64,000 bases of DNA from positions 124,001 through 188,000 of the forward strand of contig NZ_AULZ01000002.1 of NCBI RefSeq assembly GCF_000422545.1, written 5' to 3'. The notes under the pieces are model-generated. The model was given only the letters and a program-made list of their open reading frames with translations, was not told the DNA's origin and ran no database searches. This stretch comes from Desulfocurvibacter africanus subsp. africanus DSM 2603 (lineage in GTDB: Bacteria > Desulfobacterota > Desulfovibrionia > Desulfovibrionales > Desulfovibrionaceae). Of this stretch, positions 35,095 through 46,774 are shown piece by piece (the first letter of the stretch is position 1; each line of letters begins with the position of its first letter). The position numbers were made by a program, and so were the translations under genes.

Positions 35095-36113
35095 GCCCGT
35101 TCTCCATACCAGTTGGCCATGAACTCCCGATAGGAGCCGTCCTGAACCTGCGTCAGCCACTGGGCGTTGTTTTCGTACCAGCGAACGGTGCGCGCCAGCC
35201 CTTCCTCGAAATCCAGGCTGGGAGCGAAGCCCAACTCGCGGGCAGCCAGAGAGAAATCCATGGCGTAACGCTTGTCATGGCCGGGGCGGTCCTTGACATA
35301 GCGGATGAGATCCTCGCCTTTGCCTAGTATGTTCAGCATGGCCTTGACTACATCGATGTTGGCCCGCTCGGCGGCTCCGCCGAAATTGTAGACCGCGCCC
35401 GGCCGCCCTTTGCGCAGGGCCAGGTCCACGCCGCGGCAATGATCGCCCACGTAGATCCAGTCACGCACGTTGCGGCCGTCTCCGTACACAGGCAGAGGCT
35501 CGTCCCTGGAAGCCTTCAGGTACATGAGCGGGATGAGCTTCTCCGGGAACTGGTAGGGCCCGTAGTTGTTGGAGCAGCGCGTGACCACGACCGGATAGCC
35601 GTAGGTGTGGAAGTAAGCCCGGCAAAGCAGGTCCGCGGAGGCCTTGGATGCGGAGTAAGGGCTGTTGGGCGCAAGCGGCGTCTCCTCGCTGAAGGCCGGG
35701 TCGTTGGGCTCCAGGGAGCCGTAGACCTCGTCCGTGGAGACGTGCACGAAACGCTCGATGCCGGCCTTGCGCGCGCATTCCAGCAGGTTGTGCGCGCCCA
35801 TGATGTTCGTGTTCAGGAAAGGCGCGGAGTCGTGGATGGAGCGATCCACGTGGGTCTCGGCCGCGAAGTTGACTACTGCCTCTATTCGTTTCTCGTCGAA
35901 CACGCGCTGGATCAACTCGGCGTCGCCGATATCTCCGTGCACGAAATGGTAGCGGCGACCGCCGTGGCGCTCCTCGACTTGGGCCAAGTTCAGCCTGTTG
36001 CCCGCATAGGTCAGCTTATCCAGGTTGACGACGACGTCGTCGGTCTCGTTGAGGACCTGCTGGACGTAGTTGGAGCCGATGAAGCCGCAGCCGCCGGTGA
36101 TAAGAAGTCGCAT
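35091..36113 (-). CDS. rfbB: dTDP-glucose 4,6-dehydratase
   Basis: The 340-aa protein starts MRLLITGGCGFIGSNYV (GxxGxxG Rossmann motif). It has FVHVSTDEVYGSL with the catalytic Thr-Asp-Glu, YSASKASADLL with Tyr-x3-Lys, and RVRDW-type substrate block NVRDWIYVGDHCRGV. It converts dTDP-glucose to dTDP-4-keto-6-deoxyglucose, the step before RfbC/RfbD. Together with rfbD it makes a two-gene operon. Confidence 0.95.
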   Translation of the reverse strand: MRLLITGGCGFIGSNYVQQVLNETDDVVVNLDKLTYAGNRLNLAQVEERHGGRRYHFVHGDIGDAELIQRVFDEKRIEAVVNFAAETHVDRSIHDSAPFLNTNIMGAHNLLECARKAGIERFVHVSTDEVYGSLEPNDPAFSEETPLAPNSPYSASKASADLLCRAYFHTYGYPVVVTRCSNNYGPYQFPEKLIPLMYLKASRDEPLPVYGDGRNVRDWIYVGDHCRGVDLALRKGRPGAVYNFGGAAERANIDVVKAMLNILGKGEDLIRYVKDRPGHDKRYAMDFSLAARELGFAPSLDFEEGLARTVRWYENNAQWLTQVQDGSYREFMANWYGERA

Positions 36114-36278
36114 CGGGAATCCTCTTGAGGTGCGTGCCGGCCGTCTAACGAGGTCGCTTGAACCGTTGGCCGGCGGTGCTGTCTTTTACGGAATAGCCCG
36201 GCCCGAGGCAAATTTTATCCCTGTGCAAAAAATTTCTTGCCAAGTACAGGCCGAATGTCTATTTTCCGTCTCCCGCGT

Positions 36279-36354
36279 GGGCGATTAACTCAGCGGTTAG
36301 AGTGCCACCTTCACACGGTGGAAGTCCCGAGTTCAAATCCCGGATCGCCCACCA
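36279..36354 (+). tRNA. tRNA-Val (anticodon CAC)
   Basis: A 76-nt cloverleaf with acceptor stem GGGCGAT/ATCGCCC, anticodon stem CCACC/GGTGG with loop TTCACAC giving anticodon CAC, T arm GAGTTCAAATCC and an encoded CCA end. It reads GTG codons, frequent in GC-rich genomes. Confidence 0.95.
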
Positions 36355-36367
36355 CTCTAGAACCCAC

Positions 36368-36399
36368 AGCCCGAAGCCGCAACACGGTTTCGGGCTTTT
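36368..36399 (+). terminator. Terminator of tRNA-Val
   Basis: AGCCCGAAGCC and GGTTTCGGGCT form an 11-bp stem (one G-T pair) with a short loop, followed by TTTT. It lies 13 bp after the tRNA. Confidence 0.75.
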
Positions 36400-36424
36400 G
36401 CTTTGGGAGTAAGCCGAACCCGCC

Positions 36425-36880
36425 ATGCACATCGTGCTATATCAACCCCAGATTCCGCCCAACACCGGAAGCATAGCCCGGCTGTGCGCCGCCACGGGCA
36501 CGCCGCTGCATCTCATCGAGCCCCTGGGCTTCTCCATCGACGACCGCCACCTCAAACGCGCCGGCCTGGATTACTGGGAGCACGTGCGTGTCAAGGTGTG
36601 GCCCGACTGGCAGGCTTACCTGGACAGTGCGCAACCGACGCGGCTGGTGGCCACTTGCGCGCGTTTCGGCACGCCTCACCATGAGTTTTCCTTCGCGTCC
36701 GATGACGCATTGGTGCTGGGCCCCGAGGCCACGGGCCTGCCCATGCGCATCATCGAATCCATCCCGCAGCTCGTGCGCATCCCCATATGGGGTCAGGTGC
36801 GCAGCCTGAACCTGGCTAACGCGGCAAGTGTCCTGCTCTACGAAGCCTATCGCCAGACCGGCGCACTCCATGGCCGCTAG
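36425..36880 (+). CDS. trmL: tRNA (cytidine/uridine-34-2'-O)-methyltransferase TrmL
   Basis: The 151-aa SPOUT enzyme starts MHIVLYQPQIPPNTGSIARLCAAT, the standard TrmL opening, and has LGPEATGLP and IWGQVRSLNLANAASVLLYEA, the knotted SAM-binding motifs 2 and 3. It methylates the ribose of nucleotide 34 in tRNA-Leu isoacceptors. It follows tRNA-Val directly but with its own ATG and a terminator between, so they are probably separate transcripts. Confidence 0.93.
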   Translation: MHIVLYQPQIPPNTGSIARLCAATGTPLHLIEPLGFSIDDRHLKRAGLDYWEHVRVKVWPDWQAYLDSAQPTRLVATCARFGTPHHEFSFASDDALVLGPEATGLPMRIIESIPQLVRIPIWGQVRSLNLANAASVLLYEAYRQTGALHGR

Positions 36881-36903
36881 GCCGCGCCTCTCCCGCCCAT
36901 AGC

Positions 36904-38073
36904 TCACAATCCTGCTCTCCGCACAAGGTCGCGGACCCCGTAGGCGACCGCACTCAGCTTCGGGGATTTCTTGACGCGCTCCCGAAGCAGCCTGAGACTT
37001 GCGTTCGCCTTGAGCGAAACGAGATTGCCGAGGTAAGGAACAAGTCTTGGGGCGCTTATGATCAGGTTCTGGTAAGGCCTTTTTTGCGCGCCCCAGTTGG
37101 AGTGCCAGGGAAAGTTGGTGATCAGGTCGATTTCATCCGTGGCGCCTTCCTCGTGCACCCTGTGCATGAGTCGCTCCAGGAGTATGTTCCCAGGAGCGTA
37201 GCGGGCGTACTCCTCATCATAGGCAATCTTCCAGAGTGTGAGTTTGCTCTGCGTTCTCACTGCCAAGTGTCCTGCAAGCAGTTTCCCTTCAACCTTGAGG
37301 AAATGGCATTCGAGCATGCCGCGTGCACGCAGTCGCCTGATAAGGTTAGTGAAAAAACCGGTGTGGCGCTTGGAGCTGAGGATCGCGCTGCCGGCACGCC
37401 CTTTCCAGCCCGAGGCTTCGAGGCCGAAGAACTGTTGTATATGCTCCTCTGTGATGTCCTCATTGCTCAGGAACAAAATATCGTTACGGCCGAGGCGGTT
37501 TAGTCGCTTGCCGGCTTTTTTCAGGTTGCTGCGGAAATTCGAGGAGAGCGACGCCACGTAGGCCTCATGACTGCCGTTAATCTTTAGGTATGAACCGTAT
37601 CCATTCGGCTCCTTGAGGATTCGGCAACCGCCGAAGCCGTCCTGCATGACACGGAAGGACGGGGATTCCGGAGGCAGTTTGCTGAGCCTTAGAACTGCAT
37701 GCGCCGGTTCCCTGCGCGCGAACCCGTCAAGCAAGGCGGCTGCGGTTTCTAGCTCTCTTCCACTAGCGACGAGCATATCCCCGGTCCATACGTCCGGATC
37801 CGATGGAGCTTGAAAGCGCTTGCCCCCATACAAGGCTGATTGCTTTTGGCGGATAATGACCGGCAGAACGCCGACAAGCTCCTGGTCTTCGTAGGCGAAC
37901 AAGCAGAACCATTTCTCCCCTGGCTTCAGCAAGTGTTCCAGATAGGAGCGAACCCAGGCATGAGAGAGTACCGGCGACCTCTGCGGGGCAACGCTACTCA
38001 GCCTGTCCCAGGCCTCGGCGTGCATGTCGAGTTCTTCAAATTTGTGTGCGCCATGCACTTCCATCTGGCTCAT
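36904..38073 (-). CDS. CelD/BcsL-type GNAT acyltransferase
   Basis: The 389-aa protein matches the GNAT/FemAB-like acyltransferases often annotated as CelD/BcsL or BioF2-like. The order is an N-terminal FCLFAYEDQELVGVLPVI strand block, a central FRSNLKKAGKRLNRLGRND element, and a C-terminal MLECHFLKVEGKLLAGHLAVRTQSKLTLWKIAYDEEY segment (interrupted here) with the YARYAPGNILLERLM motif. The family is linked to exopolysaccharide and peptidoglycan modification. The substrate is unknown. It converges with trmL and is followed upstream by the TAXI protein gene on the same strand. Confidence 0.7.
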   Translation of the reverse strand: MSQMEVHGAHKFEELDMHAEAWDRLSSVAPQRSPVLSHAWVRSYLEHLLKPGEKWFCLFAYEDQELVGVLPVIIRQKQSALYGGKRFQAPSDPDVWTGDMLVASGRELETAAALLDGFARREPAHAVLRLSKLPPESPSFRVMQDGFGGCRILKEPNGYGSYLKINGSHEAYVASLSSNFRSNLKKAGKRLNRLGRNDILFLSNEDITEEHIQQFFGLEASGWKGRAGSAILSSKRHTGFFTNLIRRLRARGMLECHFLKVEGKLLAGHLAVRTQSKLTLWKIAYDEEYARYAPGNILLERLMHRVHEEGATDEIDLITNFPWHSNWGAQKRPYQNLIISAPRLVPYLGNLVSLKANASLRLLRERVKKSPKLSAVAYGVRDLVRRAGL

Positions 38074-38095
38074 CTAAATCTCCAGTAACAGAACA

Positions 38096-39076
38096 TTAAG
38101 GAGTTGCTCCGGGTATCAAGGCCACCTCGTTGCTGTGCATCACGCCCGGATGCAGTGGCAGCAATGGCTTGGCCTGCGCCAACTTGGCCACTGGCTCGGC
38201 GGTCTGCACCAGGATGGACAGATGCTCCAGGCCCGCAGTCGAGGCAAGGATCGCCAGACAGTCCCGCACGACCTGCGCCGGGAGCATTTCCATGGCGCAA
38301 AGCCAAGCCGTATCCGCGAATGTGGTGATGGGCTTGGTCTGTCCCGGGTACGTTCCGGCCGGGATGTTCACGGGCGCATAGCCCAAGCCCAAGTCATAGA
38401 AGCCTGACACAAGGGCGGATTGGTGCAGGTCGATGAAGCGCACGCCTTGTGTGCTGGCCAGCTCCAGCAGATGCTTGCTGGGCAGGCCGTCCATGAGCAG
38501 CATGGCGTCCGCGCGGCCTTCGCGTAGCGCCTGCGCGGCCTCCGCGTGGCCCAGGTGCAGCTTCTCCATGGAATCCCACCAGCCCAGGGCGGAGAACAAT
38601 CGTTCGGCGACCAGGGCCGTGCTCGATCCAGGGCTGCCCACGCATATGCGCTTATCGCGGAGATCCTGTGCCAGCATGGTGGACGAATCCGCCAGCACGG
38701 CGAGTTGTGCCGGGACTCGGTACAGCCCGGCCACGGCACAGACTTGTCCCGATTCAATGGCCGGGGAATCGATTATTGGCGTCAAGTCGGGCAGGGTGTC
38801 CCCCGCGAGTACGATGCCCAGCTCAAGGCTGCCTTCGCGCAGGCGCTTCAAATTGGCCCTGGAGCCGAGGGTTACCTGGGAGCTGACCTCCAGATCCTTT
38901 ATGCTCCTGGAAAGCAGAATGGCCACGGCGTTGGCCGCGTGGGTCATGGCGCTTCCGCTGGGGCCGCCGCCCAAATTGAGCTGTAGCCCGGTTCCGGCCA
39001 AGGACTCGCTCGGCATTAGCGGCCAGAAAGCCATCACTGCCATCAACAGAAACGCCCCAAGCGTTACGCGCTTCAT
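38096..39076 (-). CDS. TAXI-family TRAP transporter solute-binding protein, orphan
   Basis: From ATG 39076 (AGAGGAA upstream) the product is 326 aa. It has a signal peptide (about 1-25, ending SESLAG) and the TAXI hallmarks: LGGGPSGSAM near the N terminus, ANAVAILLSR, GSRANLKRLREGSLELGIVLAGD, and RDKRICVGSPGSSTA. TAXI proteins deliver organic acids or amino acids to DctM-type permeases, but no TRAP permease gene lies nearby. Compared with typical TAXI proteins the AYAYxG-type segment is changed. It is divergent from the hydrogenase operon across a 366-bp gap. Confidence 0.75.
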   Translation of the reverse strand: MKRVTLGAFLLMAVMAFWPLMPSESLAGTGLQLNLGGGPSGSAMTHAANAVAILLSRSIKDLEVSSQVTLGSRANLKRLREGSLELGIVLAGDTLPDLTPIIDSPAIESGQVCAVAGLYRVPAQLAVLADSSTMLAQDLRDKRICVGSPGSSTALVAERLFSALGWWDSMEKLHLGHAEAAQALREGRADAMLLMDGLPSKHLLELASTQGVRFIDLHQSALVSGFYDLGLGYAPVNIPAGTYPGQTKPITTFADTAWLCAMEMLPAQVVRDCLAILASTAGLEHLSILVQTAEPVAKLAQAKPLLPLHPGVMHSNEVALIPGATP

Positions 39077-39442
39077 GCATTCCTCTCTCTTCGGCAAACC
39101 CTTTGCGACCAATGTCCCGTCATGTTCGGGAAAGGACCCTGATCGTCGCTCAACATGACATAGAGGGCGCATGCGGGCATCATTCTAGAGGAGTATGGCT
39201 GGTTGATTTTTGAGTCATACTATTGTGATATGTTTCACAAATAACCTTAATCCTATTATTTTCTTAGGAATCTTGTAAGGTCGCCGGCTATCGCCGTTTC
39301 GAAATCAGCAAGGATACTGCCTAGTAAGAGACCCAGGCTCGGCGGGACTATCTTCGGCCGTTCTACCCTTAAGAAGATCATTAATCATGACTCCGCGGGC
39401 CTGCCGCTACAGGTCTGCTCGCGCATTCGACAGGAGGATCGC
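39077..39442. promoter_or_regulatory. 366-bp divergent region between the TAXI gene and the hydrogenase operon, with a CRP/FNR-type palindrome
   Basis: No gene is seen. The centre is AT-rich. TTGTGA, 6 bases, TCACAA at 39223-39240 is a perfect palindrome of the CRP/FNR-superfamily type, about 203 bp before the hydB ATG. TATTAT at 39254-39259 is a candidate -10 element downstream of it. In Desulfovibrio the CRP/FNR-family regulator HcpR is recalled to use a similar motif; assignment here is inference. Confidence 0.65.
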
Positions 39443-40486
39443 ATGTCCGCCTATACGGTTTACGCGGACCAGCTTCCCGGGTTGCTTGCCCGCTGGAACG
39501 GAAAATACGCTGTCTACGCTCCCAAGGACATTGGGGAGGGCATCTATGACTTCCGGCCCTGGCGCCAAGGCGATGAGATAGCCTGGGATTACGATCTGGC
39601 CTACAACAGCCTCAAACGTTTCCTGATCCCGCCCAAGGAACCTCTTATCAGCTACGACTTGAGCCGGTGCACGGCCGAGCCGATCTTCGAGGCTCCGGCC
39701 CAGCTTCTGTTTGGAGTACATCCCTACGACCTGCGGGCCATCACCCAACTCGACCAGCTCATGGAGTCCGGCGCGCCGGACAACTACTATCTGCGCCGCC
39801 GCGAGCAGACCATGATCATGGCCCTGGAACCCCTGCGCGTGGCCGAAGGGTCCTTCTGGGGCTCGGTGGGAGCGGAGAGGGTGGACGTGGGCTTTGATCT
39901 CTACTGGACCAAGCTCGGGCCGTCGTCATTCCTTGTGGAGGTGGGCACTCAGCGCGGCGAGGAACTGCTGCTGGACGGCGGTGACTTGGCACAGGCCACG
40001 CCGGGCGAACGCGAAGCCGCGCGCCGGGCCAAGGGCCGCATCCTGTCCAAGGCTCGCAAAGGCATGGCCTTCGACTGGCGGGAAATTCCCAAACTACTGG
40101 GCAAGGCCTGGGACTCGCCCCTGTGGGAGCAGCGGTCGGAGCTTTGCCTGGCTTGCGGCTCGTGCAATATGGTCTGTCCCACCTGCTACTGCTTCGACAT
40201 CCGCGAGGAGGTCGACGACAGCCTCCAGGGCGGCGTGCGTTACCGGGTCTGGGATAGCTGCATGCTGCATTCCTTCGCAGCCGTGGCCGGCAACCACAAC
40301 TTCCGGCGCAAGGCTCTGGAGCGCTACCGCCATCGCACGTACCGCAAGGGCAAGTACATCTTCGACCGGCTCGGAGAGTTGGGTTGCGTGGGCTGCGGCC
40401 GCTGCGTGCGGGCCTGCACAGCGGGCATCGCCAATCCTCTGAGGACATTCAACGACCTGTGGGAGGCAGCCAGAAATGAAGGCTAA
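39443..40486 (+). CDS. hydB: [NiFe] hydrogenase beta subunit (4Fe-4S, HydB/sulfhydrogenase type)
   Basis: The 347-aa protein is the iron-sulfur subunit that hands electrons between the small subunit and the flavoprotein. Two clusters are seen in the C-terminal third: CLACGSCNMVCPTC (CxxCxxCxxxC) near residue 236 and CVGCGRCVRAC near 316. The N-terminal part matches the 4Fe-4S dicluster subunit of sulfhydrogenases and anaerobic sulfite reductase AsrA. The ATG follows AGGAGGAT. It overlaps the gamma-subunit gene by 11 bp. The pattern beta-gamma-delta-alpha is that of archaeal and bacterial group 3b enzymes. Confidence 0.88.
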   Translation: MSAYTVYADQLPGLLARWNGKYAVYAPKDIGEGIYDFRPWRQGDEIAWDYDLAYNSLKRFLIPPKEPLISYDLSRCTAEPIFEAPAQLLFGVHPYDLRAITQLDQLMESGAPDNYYLRRREQTMIMALEPLRVAEGSFWGSVGAERVDVGFDLYWTKLGPSSFLVEVGTQRGEELLLDGGDLAQATPGEREAARRAKGRILSKARKGMAFDWREIPKLLGKAWDSPLWEQRSELCLACGSCNMVCPTCYCFDIREEVDDSLQGGVRYRVWDSCMLHSFAAVAGNHNFRRKALERYRHRTYRKGKYIFDRLGELGCVGCGRCVRACTAGIANPLRTFNDLWEAARNEG

Positions 40487-41309
40487 GCTTTTTTCGGCCT
40501 ATGTGCCCCAACCCGCGACTCTGGTGGCCACGGAACGACTGTCGGATTTCGTGACGCTGTTCCGCTTCGTGCGCGACGACGGCCGGCATTTGGCGCACAA
40601 GCCTGGCCAGTTCATCGTCCTGTCCGCCTATGGTGTAGGCGAAGCGCCCTTTTCCATCAGCTCGGCGCCAAGTCGCGACACTACGGAGTTCGAGTTGGCC
40701 GTGCGCAAGATCGGCACCATGACCACGGCCATGCACAACCTGCGGGTGGGCGACAAGGTCGGCATCCGCGGCCCCTACGGGAGCTTCTTTCCGGTGCAGG
40801 ACTTCGTGGGCAAGGACACGCTCTTCGTGGCCGGCGGCCTGGGCTATATCCCGTTGCGCAGCCTGCTGCACTACCAGCTCAAGCATCGCCAGGAGTTCGG
40901 CCGCATCATCGTGCTCGTGGGCTGCCGCAATCCCCAGGAGCGCATCTTCATCGACCAGATCGAGGAACTGTCCCGTCGCGGCGACGTGGAGATCCAGGAA
41001 ACCGTGGACTGCCCGGACCAGGATTGGAAAGGCAACGTGGGCGTCATCACCACGCTGCTGCCCAAGGTGGCCATCGACCCTGACGTGACCAACGTGGCCA
41101 TGGTAGGGCCGCCGGTCATGTACCGCTTCGTGCTGGCCGAATGCGTCAAGATGGGCATCGATCCAGGGCGCATCTACGTTTCTCTTGAACGCAAGATGAA
41201 ATGCGGATTGGGAAAGTGCGGTCACTGCCAGATCAACCACTTGAACGCGTGCGTGGACGGCCCCGTGTTCCGCTACACGGACATCGCCGCGCTGCCCGAG
41301 GCCATTTAA
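40476..41309 (+). CDS. hydG: [NiFe] hydrogenase gamma subunit, FAD/NAD(P)-binding
   Basis: The 277-aa protein has the ferredoxin-NADP reductase fold. FRFVRDDGRHLAHKPGQFIVL and APFSISSAPS form the FAD-binding region, and GGLGYIPLRSLL the NAD(P) nucleotide loop near residue 112. A C-terminal [2Fe-2S] set CGLGKCGHCQINHLNAC closes it. It moves electrons between NAD(P)H and the hydrogenase clusters. It is the second gene and overlaps hydB. The name follows the sulfhydrogenase convention and is unrelated to the [FeFe]-hydrogenase maturase HydG. Confidence 0.9.
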   Translation: MKAKLFSAYVPQPATLVATERLSDFVTLFRFVRDDGRHLAHKPGQFIVLSAYGVGEAPFSISSAPSRDTTEFELAVRKIGTMTTAMHNLRVGDKVGIRGPYGSFFPVQDFVGKDTLFVAGGLGYIPLRSLLHYQLKHRQEFGRIIVLVGCRNPQERIFIDQIEELSRRGDVEIQETVDCPDQDWKGNVGVITTLLPKVAIDPDVTNVAMVGPPVMYRFVLAECVKMGIDPGRIYVSLERKMKCGLGKCGHCQINHLNACVDGPVFRYTDIAALPEAI

Positions 41310-41342
41310 GCCGAGCGCTGGCCGACCGAAGCAGGAGGATAC

Positions 41343-42089
41343 ATGGGCGCCAAGCCAAAAATAGCATTTTACGATTTCGCGGGCTGCGAGGGCGATCAAC
41401 TGCAGGTGGCCAACCTGGAGGAGCGCCTGTTGGAGCTGCTCTCCCACGTGGAGGTGGTCAGCTTCCGCGAGGTCATGACCGGCGGGGATATCGAACCTTG
41501 CGACGTGGCCTTCGTGGAAGGCTCCGTGACCCGGCCCGAGGACGCGGAGCGCCTGCGGCGCATTCGGGACAACTCGGCCTATCTCGTGGCTTTGGGGGCC
41601 TGCGCGGCCATCGGCGGGGTCAACTGCCTCAAGAACTTCATGGAAGAGGACGTCTACCGCGAGCGCGTATACGGCTCTCAGGGCCGCTGGTTCGCGACCG
41701 GCCCGGCCCGGCCCCTGCGCAGCGTGGTCGCGGTGGACGCCGAGATTCCCGGTTGCCCTATCGACAAGAACGAATTCGCCCGCGTGACCAAGGAGCTGCT
41801 TCTGGGCCGTACGCCATGGCTGCCTGACTATCCCGTCTGCGTGGACTGCAAGGCTGCCGGCAACGTGTGTCGCTTCGATCTCGGCCGCATGTGCCTGGGC
41901 ATCATCACCCGGGCAGGCTGCGGAGCCGCCTGTGTCACCGAAGGCGCGCACTGCTGGGGCTGTCGCGGTATGGCTCCCAAGGCGAATCTGGACGCAGCGC
42001 GCCAGATAATGGATCGGGCCGGCTTTTCCCGCCGAGCTGTCCAGGACCTGTTCCGCTTCTATCTGGGCGACACAAGCGCCGCTCTCTAA
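41343..42089 (+). CDS. hydD: [NiFe] hydrogenase delta (small) subunit
   Basis: The 248-aa protein is the small subunit carrying three iron-sulfur clusters. CEGDQLQ near residue 16, GACAAIGG near 92 and GCPIDKNEF near 138 are the proximal cluster ligands. VDCKAAGNVCRFDLGRMCLGIIT and the GCGAACVTEGAHCWGCRG segment (interrupted) supply the medial and distal cluster cysteines. The ATG follows AGGAGGAT. It lacks a Tat signal, so the enzyme is cytoplasmic. A 129-bp structured gap separates it from the alpha-subunit gene. Confidence 0.9.
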   Translation: MGAKPKIAFYDFAGCEGDQLQVANLEERLLELLSHVEVVSFREVMTGGDIEPCDVAFVEGSVTRPEDAERLRRIRDNSAYLVALGACAAIGGVNCLKNFMEEDVYRERVYGSQGRWFATGPARPLRSVVAVDAEIPGCPIDKNEFARVTKELLLGRTPWLPDYPVCVDCKAAGNVCRFDLGRMCLGIITRAGCGAACVTEGAHCWGCRGMAPKANLDAARQIMDRAGFSRRAVQDLFRFYLGDTSAAL

Positions 42090-42095
42090 CTGACT

Positions 42096-42203
42096 GTTGG
42101 AAAAAATCGTCCTGGCATTTTTCAACGCCGGATGCTTCGCATCCAGCGGGCCATCCTGGCCTGCATAGTCTGTTGAAACAGGTTGCTAACCGGGCTTCGC
42201 CCG
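42096..42203 (+). other. Hairpin-rich intergenic segment between hydD and hydA
   Basis: Five stem-loops lie in a row: GTTGGAAAAA/TTTTTCAAC at 42096-42126, GGATGC-TTC-GCATCC at 42130-42144, GGCC/GGCC at 42149-42161, CTGTT/AACAG at 42170-42181 and CGGGC-TTC-GCCCG at 42191-42203. None has a clean T-run. The segment could be a repeat element or an mRNA processing/stability region. Confidence 0.6.
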
Positions 42204-42218
42204 CACGGTGGATACGCG

Positions 42219-43601
42219 ATGTACAATGACAACGATATCTCCGCACTGGCCACGGCAGCCGAGCCTTCGACCGGCCCCAGGCGCATCGACGTGCATCACC
42301 TGACCAGGGTGGAAGGCCACGGCAACATCGTGGTGCGCATCGCGGCCGACGGAACAGTGGAACAGTGCCGCTGGGAGGTCAGCGAGGCCCCACGCTTTTT
42401 CGAGGCCATGCTGCTGGGTCGCGACTACCAGGATGTGCACCATATCACCTCGCGCATCTGCGGCATATGCTCCATCGGGCACCAAGTCGCCTCCCTGCAG
42501 GCCACGGAGCAGGCCCTGAACATCCGCGTTTCGGAGCAGACCTTGGCCCTGCGCAAGCTGGCCCTGCACGCCGAAAACCTGCAAAGCCATCTGCTGCACA
42601 TAGGCTTCCTGGCACTGCCCGACTATATGGGCGTGCCCTCGACCCTGCACTTGGCCGAGACGCACCGTGAGGAGGTCCTGAACCTCATCGCCTGCCGGCG
42701 CATGTCCAACGAGTTCAGCCGGCTCGTCTGCGGACGTACCACGCACCCGCAACGTTTTGTGCCCGGAGGCTTCGCCAGGCTGCCTAGCATGGATGACTTG
42801 CATCAGTTGCGGGTCCTGCTGGCCGAAAGCCTGCCTGGCTTGGGTCGTGTTATTGATTTATGCGCTTCCCTGCGTGACAGAGTGCCGGCCTTCGAGCGCG
42901 AAACCGAATACATCGCCCTGGTGGCGCCATCCGAGTATCCGCTTTACTGGGGGCACATCGGGTCCAGCATGGACGATCGACGGCCCGTGGATCAATACGA
43001 GCAGATGACCCGCGAGTATCTCGTGCGCCAATCCACGGCCAAGTGGGCCAGGAACAAGGCCGAATCCTTCATGGTCGGCGCTTTGTCCCGCTTCAACCTG
43101 AACCATGCCCAGCTCACGGATGGGGCGCGCAAGGCCGCCGCTACCCTGGGGCTCGCTGCGCCGTGCCACAACCCGTTTCTCATCACCCTGGCTCAGCTCG
43201 TGGAGTGCGTGCACTCGGTGGAGGACTCCCTGCTCCTGGTCGAGGCTTTGCTTTCGCGCGGCCTGCGCCATGAGGCGTCCAGCAAGATCAAGCTGCAGGC
43301 AGGCCGGGGCGCCAGCGCCGTGGAGGTGCCCCGGGGCATCCTCTTCCATGCCTACGAATATGATGAGCAGGGCAGGGTGGTGTCCGCTGACTGCGTCATT
43401 CCCACCAACCAGAACCACGCCAACATTCAGAAGGACATGGAGGCCCTGACGCCGAGATTGTCGGGTCTGCCCGAGTCCGAGATAGAGCGTCTGCTGAGCA
43501 TGCTCGTGCGCGCATACGACCCGTGCATCTCTTGCTCTACACATTTGCTGGAGACCGAGCAGCGTAAAGCCGAACGTCCCGTCCGATTTATCAGGACTTA
43601 A
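42219..43601 (+). CDS. hydA: [NiFe] hydrogenase alpha (large) subunit
   Basis: From ATG 42219 the product is 460 aa. The four nickel-binding cysteines are Cys81 and Cys84 (RICGIC, motif L1) and Cys436 and Cys439 (DPCISC, motif L2). RVEGHG near residue 28 is conserved too. About 18 residues follow the DPCISCSTH motif, consistent with a C-terminal extension removed by a maturation protease. Together with hydB, hydG and hydD this gives a cytoplasmic NAD(P)-coupled group 3b-like enzyme. No maturation genes (hyp or the protease) are in the window. A 12-residue longer frame is less well supported. Confidence 0.93.
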   Translation: MYNDNDISALATAAEPSTGPRRIDVHHLTRVEGHGNIVVRIAADGTVEQCRWEVSEAPRFFEAMLLGRDYQDVHHITSRICGICSIGHQVASLQATEQALNIRVSEQTLALRKLALHAENLQSHLLHIGFLALPDYMGVPSTLHLAETHREEVLNLIACRRMSNEFSRLVCGRTTHPQRFVPGGFARLPSMDDLHQLRVLLAESLPGLGRVIDLCASLRDRVPAFERETEYIALVAPSEYPLYWGHIGSSMDDRRPVDQYEQMTREYLVRQSTAKWARNKAESFMVGALSRFNLNHAQLTDGARKAAATLGLAAPCHNPFLITLAQLVECVHSVEDSLLLVEALLSRGLRHEASSKIKLQAGRGASAVEVPRGILFHAYEYDEQGRVVSADCVIPTNQNHANIQKDMEALTPRLSGLPESEIERLLSMLVRAYDPCISCSTHLLETEQRKAERPVRFIRT

Positions 43602-43627
43602 CTCCGAAGCGCATATAACAACAGTCG

Positions 43628-43660
43628 GCGTCCCGTCGCAGCCAGCGGCAGGACGCTTTT
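43628..43660 (+). terminator. Terminator-like hairpin after the hydrogenase operon
   Basis: GCGTCC and GGACGC pair across a GC-rich, partly self-complementary loop of 17 bases and lead into TTTT. It lies 27 bp after hydA. Confidence 0.55.
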
Positions 43661-43679
43661 CTCTGTTGAAATGTAAATG

Positions 43680-43707
43680 TTGACGCTCTTTCCGCGTCTT
43701 GTGTAAC
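43680..43707 (+). promoter_or_regulatory. Candidate promoter of cobD
   Basis: TTGACG and TGTAAC are separated by 16 bp, about 108 bp before the cobD ATG. Only the -35 is close to consensus. I looked for a cobalamin riboswitch in the same leader and found no convincing one. Confidence 0.35.
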
Positions 43708-43814
43708 ACTGGGAAGTGGATGCTGCAGGCCTAGTGCGCGCTTGATGCTCAGTTCGTGCGCCAAACCCTCCAGCATGGAATGGTGGCGGATAATATCAAG
43801 ACAAGGACAGCGGT

Positions 43815-44753
43815 ATGGATTTCGCGATTGCACTTCTAGCAGTGCTTCTGGATCTGGCTTTGGGCGATCCGCGTCGTCTCTACCATCCGGTGCGGGCCCT
43901 GGGCGCGCTCATGGACAGAGAAGAGGCCATTGTCCGCAGTGCGGGAGGTTTGTCGCTCAAGTGGTGGGGCATCCTTTTCGTGCTGTTCAATGCTCTCGGC
44001 GCATGGTTGGTGGTGCGTCTGCTCACGTCCATTCCCGTGCTCGGCTGGTTGATTGCACTATACTTGGCATACACGGGGCTTGCCCTTGGCCAACTTTGGA
44101 GGGACGGCCGGCGCGTGGCGCGGCTCATCGACGCCGGTGATCTGTCGAACGCACGGCTGGCGCTGGCGCATCTCGTGACGCGCGACACTTCGGCCATGGA
44201 CGAGCAGGCTCTGCGGCGCTCCCTTGCCGAAACCATGAGCGAGAACATGAACGACGGCTTCGTGGCTCCGTTCTTCTACCTGGTCATCGGCGGGCCGGCG
44301 CTTTTGTGGTTATACAAGACCGTGAGCACCATGGATTCCATGTGGGGCTACAAGACCGAGCGTTACCGGGAATTCGGCTGGGCCGCGGCGCGCACGGACG
44401 ACGTGCTGGCTTTCCTGCCTGCACGCATGACCGCCTTCTTCATGCTAGGCGCAGGCTGGTTCATGTCCCTGGACGTGCATCGCGCTTTCGACAACATGCG
44501 TACCGATGCGCTCAAGACCGAGAGTCCAAATGCCGGCTGGCCCATGTCCGCCGCCGCTTGGTTATTGGGCGCATGGGTAGGCGGCCCGGCGGTTTACTTC
44601 GGACGGCTGAAGGACAAACCAGTGCTGGGGCCGACCGAAGGAGCTTGGAGCAGCATTAAGACCAAACGCTTGCTGCGGATGATTTTGGCTACAGGTTTTG
44701 TGTCGACCGCCGCTCTGGCCGCCTATTTCGCCATGCTGTTTGCCGCGGCATAG
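43815..44753 (+). CDS. cobD: Cobalamin biosynthesis protein CobD/CbiB
   Basis: The 312-aa integral membrane protein has the family start FAIALLAVLLDLALGDPRRLYHPVRALGALM (interrupted here), a central SEN(MNDGFVAPFFY) block with ETMSENMNDG, and TMDSMWGYKTERYREFG. These are the CbiB hallmarks. CobD/CbiB attaches aminopropanol (or its phosphate) to adenosylcobyric acid. It is monocistronic here. Corrinoid demand in the cell fits the presence of a RACE protein at 9298-10869. Terminator not seen. Confidence 0.92.
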   Translation: MDFAIALLAVLLDLALGDPRRLYHPVRALGALMDREEAIVRSAGGLSLKWWGILFVLFNALGAWLVVRLLTSIPVLGWLIALYLAYTGLALGQLWRDGRRVARLIDAGDLSNARLALAHLVTRDTSAMDEQALRRSLAETMSENMNDGFVAPFFYLVIGGPALLWLYKTVSTMDSMWGYKTERYREFGWAAARTDDVLAFLPARMTAFFMLGAGWFMSLDVHRAFDNMRTDALKTESPNAGWPMSAAAWLLGAWVGGPAVYFGRLKDKPVLGPTEGAWSSIKTKRLLRMILATGFVSTAALAAYFAMLFAAA

Positions 44754-45298
44754 TAGCCTCTGCGGAGTTACTACAATGTGAAGTCTCCATGCGAATATCC
44801 ATTGATGGATGGTATCCTTCCATTTGTCTGTTGCAGACTCGTGTCTAAAAATAATCGAGTGGTGCGTGTGTCCAGTGTTTCAGGACACGGTGGATTAAGG
44901 GTTTTGCTAGTCCATATTTCTCGGACAAGAAATTTTTACATAGTGTAGTGAACGCTTGTCATCCAGCTTTCCAGGAAAGTGGTTTGCCTTCGTTGCAGGC
45001 GTAGCGTGCTTTTAGTTGCTTCATTAAGGCTGGTTTCCATTCTTTATCTATAGCAATGAAAGCTTACTTTTTAATTATGAAGCAAAAATGCAGCAGAATA
45101 CCCTTGCAATACATGCAAAAGTGTGATTTCTGATTGTCCATCACGCGAATGCGTGACGTGAGTCACGGAGCGGGCGATGTGTCGGCAGCGAGTCCAGACC
45201 TTACGTCACATGAATCGCACCTGCCCCAAAGGACGCTAGGCAGTTTCCGCGAGCGTCCATCGACATACAGACCCTGCGAACGATAAGGAGCGAGCACA
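44754..45298. other. 545-bp AT-richer intergenic stretch between cobD and mucR
   Basis: The base composition is clearly lower in GC than the neighbours. It holds a possible decayed reading frame (44845-45063), a TGTCC/GGACA inverted repeat near 44870 and, near 45140-45165, a nested palindromic stretch around TCACGCGAATGCGTGA and GTGACGTGAGTCAC just upstream of mucR, which may be an operator. No tRNA or complete gene is seen. Confidence 0.5.
44845..45063 (-). pseudogene. Possible decayed ORF remnant
   Basis: On the minus strand 73 codons are open except for one internal TGA. The reading includes EWKPALMKQLKARY, NEGKPLSWKAG, the stop, then KNFLSEKYGLAKPL and HRVLKHWTHAPLDYF before TAG. The composition looks protein-like and AT-rich, suggesting a transferred and decayed gene, but the length is small and no family is recognised. 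Confidence 0.25.
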
Positions 45299-45703
45299 AT
45301 GGACGACTTTCTCAAGGAAGCCTTGGAGATCGTCAAAGCACAGGCGAGCGTGCGCAATATGACCGAGGAGGAGATCATCTCCATGGTCAAGTCGTTGGCT
45401 GGAGGCATTCAAGCCATCGGAGCCAGCGAAGGCGGCGAATCCTTCAATCCGGCCGAGGATCCCAAAAAAGCAGTCAAGGAAAAGACGATCGTCTGCCTCG
45501 ATTGCGGCAAGTCTTTCAAGATCCTGACCAAGAAGCATCTGTCCACTCATGGTCTCACGCCCGACCAGTACAGAGAGAAGTGGGACTATCCCAAGAAGAT
45601 GCCCCTGGTCTGCAAATCCCTGCAGCGCGAGCGCCGCAAGAAGATGAAGGATATGCGCCTGTGGGAGAAACGCACTGGCACGGGCAAAGGCAAGGACAGC
45701 TAG
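45299..45703 (+). CDS. MucR/Ros-family transcriptional regulator
   Basis: The 134-aa protein has a helical N-terminal part, FLKEALEIVKAQASV, and the Ros/MucR zinc finger. Its segment CLDCGKSFKILTKKHLSTH gives Cys-x2-Cys and two His ligands, followed by HGLTPDQYREKWDYP, the family signature. A basic Lys/Arg-rich tail follows. MucR proteins bind AT-rich DNA and regulate many genes. AAGGAG precedes the ATG. The stop TAG (45701-45703) overlaps the first bases of repeat copy 3. The palindromic upstream stretch could be an autoregulatory site. Confidence 0.88.
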   Translation: MDDFLKEALEIVKAQASVRNMTEEEIISMVKSLAGGIQAIGASEGGESFNPAEDPKKAVKEKTIVCLDCGKSFKILTKKHLSTHGLTPDQYREKWDYPKKMPLVCKSLQRERRKKMKDMRLWEKRTGTGKGKDS

Positions 45704-45827
45704 AGCATTTGCTTTTGAAAATGCTCTGCAAGCCATGCGTCGGCATGGCTTGCCACCGCGTAGGCGTAGGCGCAATTCACTTGCGCCGTCAACGCCGGAG
45801 CGGGCGTCTTAAAAGCAATCTGCTCTA
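45701..45827 (-). repeat. Dispersed palindromic MITE-like element, copy 3 (orientation B)
   Basis: About 123 bp between TA dinucleotides at 45701-45702 and 45826-45827, almost identical to copy 2 and inverted relative to copy 1. The first element base completes the mucR stop codon TAG. One T is missing from the left terminal repeat (GAGCATTTGC). Two GCGTAG-type hexamer units are present, compared with three in copy 1. Confidence 0.85.
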
Positions 45828-45911
45828 TGACGGCCCTCTAGGGCGGCGTGTCCCTGGCTTCAGGCTTGTTTATCGGCTGATTGCCAAGGGCGCTCTCTGC
45901 CGCAATGCATG

Positions 45912-45946
45912 AAAAAGCCCCCGAAGCACAAGCTTCGGGGGCTTTT
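45912..45946 (-). terminator. Terminator of ndk-proC
   Basis: A 15-bp perfect stem AAAAGCCCCCGAAGC/GCTTCGGGGGCTTTT with a 4-base loop ends in a T-tract on the minus strand; it may also act on the plus strand. Confidence 0.9.
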
Positions 45947-45973
45947 CGTAAGATCCGCGGCCATGCTGTTGCG

Positions 45974-46774
45974 CTATTTGCCGAGTTCAATGCTGCGTTT
46001 ATAGCTGGCCTCCACGGCGTCGATGATCGCCGCGCGCACGGCCTGGCGGTCCATGTGGACCAGAGCCCGGATGGTCGTGCCCGCGGGCGAGGTGACCATC
46101 TCGCGCAGCACCGAAAGATGTTCGCCGCTCTCGGCGGCCAGCTTGCCAGAGCCGGTCAGCAGGCCGAGCACCATGTCCGTGGCCTGCGTTCTGGGCAGGC
46201 CCAGGTACACGGCCGATTCAACCAGAGCCTCCATGAAATAGAAAACATAGGCCGGACCCGAGCCGACCACGGCCGTGAATGCGTCGAACAATGTCTCGGG
46301 CAGGACATGCACCGCGCCCACGGCTGTGAACAGATCCTGCACCTGACGCTTCTGCGCCTCACTCAAGCGAGGATCGTCCAGGCATATCGCGCTCACGCCC
46401 GCGCCCACCAAGGCCGGCGTATTGGGCATGACGCGCACCACGGGACAAGCATTGCCGCTCCATTCGCGCAGCCGCGCTACGGGTATGCCGGCCGCGATGG
46501 ACACCAGACACTTGGCTTCCGTGAGATGGCCGGACATGTCCTGCAGCACTGGACGCAGGTGCTGCGGTTTGACGGCGAGCACGACGTAGTCCGAGCGTTG
46601 AGCCACATCGTTGGGGGTCGCCAAAGGCTCGAGCCCGCAATCGCGCTTGAGTTCAGCGAGCTTGTCCCTGTTCAGATCCGTCCCGCAGAATTCAAGACTG
46701 CCACGCCCGGTCAGGCCACGGATGATGGCCGTGCCCATGTTGCCGGTGCCAACAAAGCCGATGACCGGGCTCAT
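45974..46774 (-). CDS. proC: Pyrroline-5-carboxylate reductase
   Basis: The 266-aa enzyme makes proline from pyrroline-5-carboxylate with NAD(P)H. IGFVGTGNMGTAIIRGL is the Rossmann loop. The C-terminal signature is VTSPAGTTIRALVHMDRQAVRAAIIDAVEASYKRS in interrupted form. VVRVMPNTPALVGAGVSAI is also characteristic. It lies 3 bp after ndk, so the two are co-transcribed and end at the downstream terminator. Confidence 0.95.
   Translation of the reverse strand: MSPVIGFVGTGNMGTAIIRGLTGRGSLEFCGTDLNRDKLAELKRDCGLEPLATPNDVAQRSDYVVLAVKPQHLRPVLQDMSGHLTEAKCLVSIAAGIPVARLREWSGNACPVVRVMPNTPALVGAGVSAICLDDPRLSEAQKRQVQDLFTAVGAVHVLPETLFDAFTAVVGSGPAYVFYFMEALVESAVYLGLPRTQATDMVLGLLTGSGKLAAESGEHLSVLREMVTSPAGTTIRALVHMDRQAVRAAIIDAVEASYKRSIELGK

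Follow-up and report, generated by a model that had tools for sequence, protein, structure and literature searches.

The window that we analyzed is a 64,000-nucleotide stretch of the Desulfocurvibacter africanus subsp. africanus DSM 2603 genome (contig NZ_AULZ01000002.1, positions 124,001 to 188,000), and it contains a four-gene operon, hydBGDA, for a predicted cytosolic [NiFe] hydrogenase of group 3b. Between hydB and a divergent gene for a TAXI-family solute-binding protein is a perfect palindrome, TTGTGATATGTTTCACAA (39223..39240, no strand assigned), which has the form TTGTGA-N6-TCACAA. We believe, if only just, that this palindrome is an operator for the redox-responsive regulator Rex, that it overlaps the -35 element of the hyd promoter, and that it places the hydrogenase under NADH-gated control. 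A preliminary description of the locus, made from the sequence alone, had placed the palindrome between the TAXI gene and hydB-hydG-hydD-hydA, and both the coordinates and the open reading frames (ORFs) were confirmed. The same description saw the palindrome as a CRP/FNR-type site, perhaps for HcpR. This holds in that the HcpR consensus is the same and in that the genome encodes an HcpR-like protein, but Rex sites are identical and the evidence for Rex is stronger, both in this genome and in its relatives, which is why we prefer Rex over HcpR. Similarly, of the two signals that had been suggested, redox state fits Rex, and we found nothing that points to nitrosative stress (although hcp was not searched for).

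TTGTGATATGTTTCACAA is the only perfect match to TTGTGA-N6-TCACAA in 4.4 Mb (the reversed pattern has none), and it is the sole match in the window with up to two mismatches, where about one would be expected by chance. Across the whole genome, there is a mild excess of sites within two mismatches of this bare motif (48, versus 32 for the reversed control). When the 366-bp intergenic region was shuffled 20,000 times with its dinucleotides preserved, the perfect motif did not arise once. In contrast, an exact 6-6-6 inverted repeat, whatever its sequence, was present in 1,819 of the shuffles, so the significance of the palindrome rests on its match to a known operator and not on the dyad alone. 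The palindrome is 202 bp from hydB and 146 bp from the probable start of the TAXI gene. A weak promoter-like sequence (TTCACA-N17-TATTTT, 9/12, 39234..39262, + strand) points toward hydB and has its -35 element within the right arm of the palindrome. If this is the hyd promoter, then a protein bound at the palindrome would prevent transcription, as expected of a repressor. The intergenic region contains two promoter-like sites, both on the + strand toward hydB, versus a mean of 0.3 in shuffles. Also, a ribosome-binding site (AGGAGG, 39432..39437, + strand) can be read just before the ATG of hydB at 39443.

In the mechanism that we envision, Rex would be bound to the palindrome when the NADH/NAD+ ratio is low, and hydBGDA would be repressed; as NADH rises, Rex would be released and the hydrogenase would be made. 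Hydrogen chemistry would take place at the Ni-Fe site of HydA, and electrons would pass through the iron-sulfur clusters that HydD and HydB carry, reach the FAD in HydG, and move on to NAD(P), whichever of the two cofactors is preferred. Rex leaves the DNA when it is bound to NADH, according to an excerpt of PMC7306483, so hydBGDA would be expected to rise under reductive load and to discharge NAD(P)H as hydrogen. The enzyme would thus be a hydrogen-forming valve for excess reducing power, or it might run in reverse, to make NAD(P)H from hydrogen. The handling of NAD(P)H by sulfate reducers and the possible cycling of hydrogen inside their cells are long-standing questions, and a [NiFe] hydrogenase that is cytosolic and linked to NAD(P), here perhaps controlled by NADH, is a specific and testable link to them.

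The genome encodes one match to the Rex family (NF003993, 329.8 bits versus a cut-off of 217), and the best solved homolog of this protein is 5zz5 (E = 2e-50). The rex gene is on the same strand as, and behind, a set of ATP-synthase-like genes, of which the first is atpI-like (PF09527) and others were recognized by eye as the a and c subunits; rex appears to be part of the atpI-like gene's operon. ATP synthase and adk are Rex targets, and similar sites lie near both. Specifically, among the 28 near-match sites of this genome whose gene context we examined (with gene calls from a simple script), TTGTGACAACTTTCACGA is 135 bp upstream of the atpF operon (PF00430), another site is 43 bp upstream of the atpI-like gene (two mismatches from the relaxed Rex pattern, three from the bare motif), and a third is 14 bp upstream of adk (an adenylate kinase family match over the cut-off). 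Another near-match, TTGTGACCAAGTTCACCG (locus L160, C14:54500-64000), lies at 129 bp, between an HdrA-like gene and the gene for a 318-amino-acid iron-sulfur protein, which is followed by HydB-like, HydG-like, and SCO4226-like (PF14026) genes. Further near-matches are close to a gene of the fumarate-reductase type and one for a TetR protein, and others are inside genes or beside genes without a link to redox.

The atpF site is the firmest of these near-matches. Among 30 atpF loci, taken from 56 genomes with a match, seven (including this one) have the site within three mismatches at -149 to -152, and five of those seven have a left arm of GTGAA or GTTAA, which we take to be Rex-type. Separately, a second element that ends in TTCACAA (TTG...ATTCACAA-like) is found 32-51 bp before atpF in 29 of the 30 loci (L180-L209; it is at -109 in L182). 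This second element may be a further operator half-site, or it may belong to a promoter.

Perfect sites are also overrepresented in related genomes: 44 genomes of the family contain 21 of them, in 15 genomes, whereas the reversed control has two, which share a genome. Of the 20 sites outside the window, one (L278) is inside a gene, and nine had a neighboring gene scanned against protein families. In genome G078, a perfect site, TTGTGAAAATAATCACAA, is 114 bp before an operon (L285/L294) with hndA-like and NuoF-like genes and an [FeFe]-hydrogenase gene in which the motifs TSCCPGW and MACPGGC occur. We take this to be hndABCD, which encodes the NADP-linked [FeFe] hydrogenase of Desulfovibrio-type bacteria. 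In genome G120, a perfect site is 35 bp before adhE (an 865-amino-acid frame). Both hndABCD and adhE are targets to be expected of an NADH sensor. The other scanned neighbors were DUF169 genes (in two genomes) and genes for TauE, OadG-like, GrdG-like, Cache-histidine kinase, and EAL proteins (one each). Counting two-mismatch sites as well as perfect ones, such palindromes recur upstream of DUF169 genes (L281 and L282) and TauE genes (L293 and, in our genome, L161).

Rex control of hydrogenases has precedents. In Caldicellulosiruptor bescii, according to an excerpt of PMC6391272, electrophoretic mobility shift assays lend support to control of both [NiFe]- and [FeFe]-type hydrogenase genes by Rex. 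An excerpt of PMC4215793 states that in Desulfovibrio, Rnf and many sulfate-reduction genes are coregulated by Rex. Another precedent, described in an excerpt of PMC7306483, is the hyd-3b operon of Calderihabitans maritimus KKC1: like hydBGDA, it encodes a group 3b enzyme and has a predicted Rex-type motif upstream (TTGTGA-N6-TCACAA-like), and its expression rises with CO. However, C. maritimus is a thermophilic CO-utilizing organism, and unlike hydBGDA, its operon carries a gene for a maturation protease. The HndABCD of G078 is likewise a cytosolic NAD(P)-linked hydrogenase behind a perfect palindrome, but it is of the [FeFe] type, is unrelated to the enzyme of the window, and has subunits that resemble NuoE and NuoF. 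A broader and more speculative proposal, which we hold only tentatively, is that Rex acquired control of unrelated cytosolic, NAD(P)-linked hydrogenases on separate occasions within the Desulfovibrionaceae (the [NiFe] group 3b enzyme here and the [FeFe] enzyme HndABCD in a sister genus). Hydrogen exchange would then serve as an overflow valve gated by NADH, and a single operator might be contested by Rex and an HcpR-like protein.

Several observations weigh against a Rex operator upstream of hydB, among them a lack of conservation, although the genus itself is represented in the genome set by a single genome. We examined the region from -600 to +60 of hydB in 48 relatives (29 orthologs from the order Desulfovibrionales, two further close relatives, and 17 more distant ones; five of the 48 had less upstream DNA, including L117 with 23 bp and L073 with 263 bp). 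None of the 48 had a perfect site, and none of the 29 orthologs from the order had a site with zero or one mismatch or a match to the relaxed Rex pattern with up to two mismatches. One of these orthologs (L071) had a site with two mismatches, which is the control level (one for the reversed pattern and a mean of 0.6 in shuffles). As the site is not kept in the 29 orthologs, the regulatory wiring either arose recently, or has disappeared from the other lineages, or does not exist. (Two-mismatch sites in two distant metagenome-assembled genomes, at L133 and L138, overlap the start of hydB or are inside it. There was also no palindrome of any sequence common to the order among the best three per locus for the window and the 29 orthologs; L066, L067, L069, and L074, all from one genus, share a CCATGTGCATTTTTGAACATGG-like palindrome upstream of hydB.) The site in the window, close to the promoter-like sequence, resembles the TTGTGAA-N4-TTCACAA form of Rex operators, but it departs from the relaxed Rex pattern at a single position, as its left arm is TTGTGAT rather than TTGTGAA. 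The relaxed pattern is not enriched across the genome (16 sites versus 18 for the reversed control), so the near-matches at atpF, atpI, and adk are suggestive only. Finally, typical Rex targets were identified at just two of the 20 other perfect sites (hnd and adhE).

We considered three alternatives to Rex at hydBGDA. The palindrome could instead be bound by an HcpR1-like CRP/FNR protein (L092, on contig C12), which would activate or repress hydBGDA in response to nitric oxide or another signal. Such control is possible, but we judge it unlikely and it is not our best reading. The HcpR consensus in Desulfovibrio is TTGTGAnnnnnnTCACAA, the identical 18-mer, according to an excerpt of PMC545781. 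An excerpt of PMC5701242 adds that HcpR1 binds TGTGA-N6-TCACA, but also that Rex sites are identical to those of HcpR1, so the 18-mer by itself does not point to HcpR unless Rex has been considered too. The presence of a suitable protein counts in favor of HcpR and against Rex. Our genome has nine matches to cyclic-nucleotide-binding domains, three of which have a terminal helix-turn-helix-like region by eye, and L092 belongs to the CRP/FNR family by its match in the PDB. Its recognition helix (RETLSR, read by eye) is CRP-type and has the R-E-x-x-x-R residues that are tied to this type of site in the same excerpt of PMC5701242. The L092 gene has a site of its own, CCGTGACCCGCGTCACAA, at -47, and three of 29 related loci (L219, L221, and L233) have a site with three mismatches at -41 to -52. 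However, none of the 29 had the site with up to two mismatches. (We examined 30 such loci, and 51 of 59 genomes had a match; as our own genome was the only positive at this tolerance, we set aside the own-promoter footprint.) The site at L092 has C at position 7 in both arms, while the hyd site has T and A, and we infer that this position separates Rex from HcpR; over the 42 arms of the perfect sites in the family, it is A in 22, T in 15, C in four, and G in one. Furthermore, hcp, frdX, and nap were not among the neighbors at the nine family-scanned sites. Although the Desulfovibrio HcpR regulon has the same consensus palindrome, its targets as named in excerpts of PMC545781 and PMC5701242 (hcp-frdX, sat, apsAB, coo, nap, and others) do not include a group 3b hydrogenase.

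It is also conceivable, though we think it rather improbable, that the palindrome serves Rex or another regulator at the divergent TAXI gene, or at both genes, rather than at hydBGDA alone. This would suit the position of the palindrome, which is nearer to the TAXI start than to hydB, and among TAXI relatives, four of 29 loci have a two-mismatch site upstream (L247, L254, L256, and L259, two of them from one genus), versus none of 29 for the reversed pattern and a mean of 0.7 and at most two in shuffles. Because these counts exceed the controls, they raise the chances of TAXI control and lower those of Rex acting at hydBGDA. On the other hand, both promoter-like matches point to hydB, the TAXI relatives are not true orthologs (they are at most 40% identical), and none of the 29 has a site within one mismatch. 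Also, no TAXI match (E of 1e-5, within the stretch examined) adjoins hydB in the 29 orthologs from the order; L070 and L079 have TAXI matches about 2.5 kb away. Chance is an explanation that we regard as quite doubtful, with hydBGDA being regulated in some other way or constitutive. The lack of conservation among the 29 orthologs would be explained, and a genome with one perfect site is in line with the rest of the family (zero to three), but chance accounts poorly for the absence of the motif from all 20,000 intergenic shuffles and for the roughly tenfold excess of perfect sites over the reversed control among the family's genomes (21 versus 2).

The assignment of the enzyme to group 3b is supported by its subunit families and its gene order, both of which match 3b. 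All four genes are on the + strand. HydB (39443..40486) is the beta subunit with two [4Fe-4S] clusters (PF17179, Fer4_22, 112.9 bits; NF040833 HydB, 188 bits versus an equivalog cut-off of 750). HydG (40476..41309) is the FAD/NAD(P) and [2Fe-2S] gamma subunit (PF00970, PF00175, and PF10418; PRK08345, 234.5 bits versus 395), and its best match in the PDB is 9nez_C (E = 1.1e-55). HydD (41343..42089) is the small (delta) subunit (PF01058, Oxidored_q6, 77.7 bits; NF040836 HydD, 151.9 bits versus 500). HydA (42183..43601) is the [NiFe] large (alpha) subunit, with the NiFeSe_Hases Pfam domain and a match in the PDB to 9nez_D (E = 2e-64); it probably starts at the ATG at 42219 rather than at the listed TTG at 42183. 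The operon does not include HoxFU or HdrA/MvhD partners. HydA scores 261.5 bits against NF040828 (ShyA) and 226.3 bits against NF040832 (HydA), both of which are 3b families, versus about 125 bits for FrhA (3a) and VhuA. All four subunits have their best NCBIfam matches among the families for sulfhydrogenase 1 and 2 subunits (PRK08345 for HydG), although none reaches the equivalog cut-off for the archaeal SHI or SHII enzymes.

The best solved relatives are SHI of Pyrococcus furiosus (9nez) and the Thermococcus kodakarensis enzyme, which, along with SHII, we presume to be group 3b [NiFe] hydrogenases. When HydA is aligned to 9nez, both CxxC motifs that bind nickel are present (RICGIC and DPCISC). 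The iron-sulfur cysteine motifs were seen, and a twin-arginine translocation (Tat) signal was not seen, when we inspected the translations of the subunits by eye; these features had been reported in the preliminary description and bear it out. SHI and SHII share the four subunit types and matching motifs with hydBGDA, and a cytosolic location is suggested by the lack of signals, but the HydA of the window is far below their equivalog cut-offs (226 and 262 bits versus 880 and 700) and is on a branch with Thermoplasmatota and other metagenome-assembled genomes (about 48-55% identity). In a tree of 48 HydA rows (with long branches flagged), the window is within a Desulfovibrionales clade (16 rows, 100/100), and 44 rows (100/99) join it with Thermoplasmatota, Myxococcota, other metagenome-assembled genomes, and the 3b references, apart from two HoxH (3d) and the genome's own MvhA (3c); no 3a row was included. 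The 3b references were SHI, the T. kodakarensis enzyme, and two plasmid loci (L270 and L271) that were labeled as 3b from their operon layout. Thus, at the level of sequence, the view of hydBGDA as a group-3b-like, cytosolic hydrogenase with an FAD/NAD(P)-binding subunit, and as distinct from group 3c, held up.

A group 3b enzyme is ordinary for the Desulfovibrionales lineage. Of the 199 genomes searched in the order, 29 others have an ortholog with 60-70% identity, and G069 has a fragment. With our own genome added to the 29, the enzyme is present in 30 of 199, or about one in seven. Two genomes have relatives of HydA at 34-35% identity, and 191 of the 199 have some HydA match. Judging by titles, we did not find an article devoted to the Desulfovibrio-type group 3b enzyme in the open-licence literature (Desulfovibrio and Humidesulfovibrio). 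The two plasmid operons mentioned above (L270 from Burkholderia savannae and L271 from Rhodococcus qingshengii) include a small gene with a cyclic-nucleotide-binding domain and a maturation protease gene, neither of which is in the window's operon. Our genome also encodes other [NiFe] large subunits, including two on contig C10 and an Mvh/Hdr-type set on contig C28. In the latter cluster (L101), the HdrA-like, MvhD-like, and MvhA-like genes have an in-frame TGA, which probably encodes selenocysteine.

The TAXI gene, a possible second target of the operator, is on the - strand (38096..39076, in an ORF that extends to 39172; TIGR02122, 128.8 bits versus a cut-off of 84.35; PF16868). We placed its likely start at 39076 and not at 39172 because a stretch that resembles a signal peptide begins there. 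Downstream of hydA, the next gene is cbiB (43815..44753, + strand), for adenosylcobinamide-phosphate synthase (TIGR00380, 193.3 bits versus a cut-off of 165.9), which is probably not part of the hydrogenase. An Rfam scan of 36000-46500 at gathering scores found one tRNA only, so we see no cobalamin riboswitch between hydA and cbiB. A cbiB gene is straight after hydA in three of the 29 orthologs from the order as well (L068, L070, and L076) and about 1.2 kb off in L073, so this neighborhood is a recurrent one. Downstream of cbiB is a gene for a ROS/MucR-type regulator (window positions 45299-45703; PF05443, 149.5 bits).

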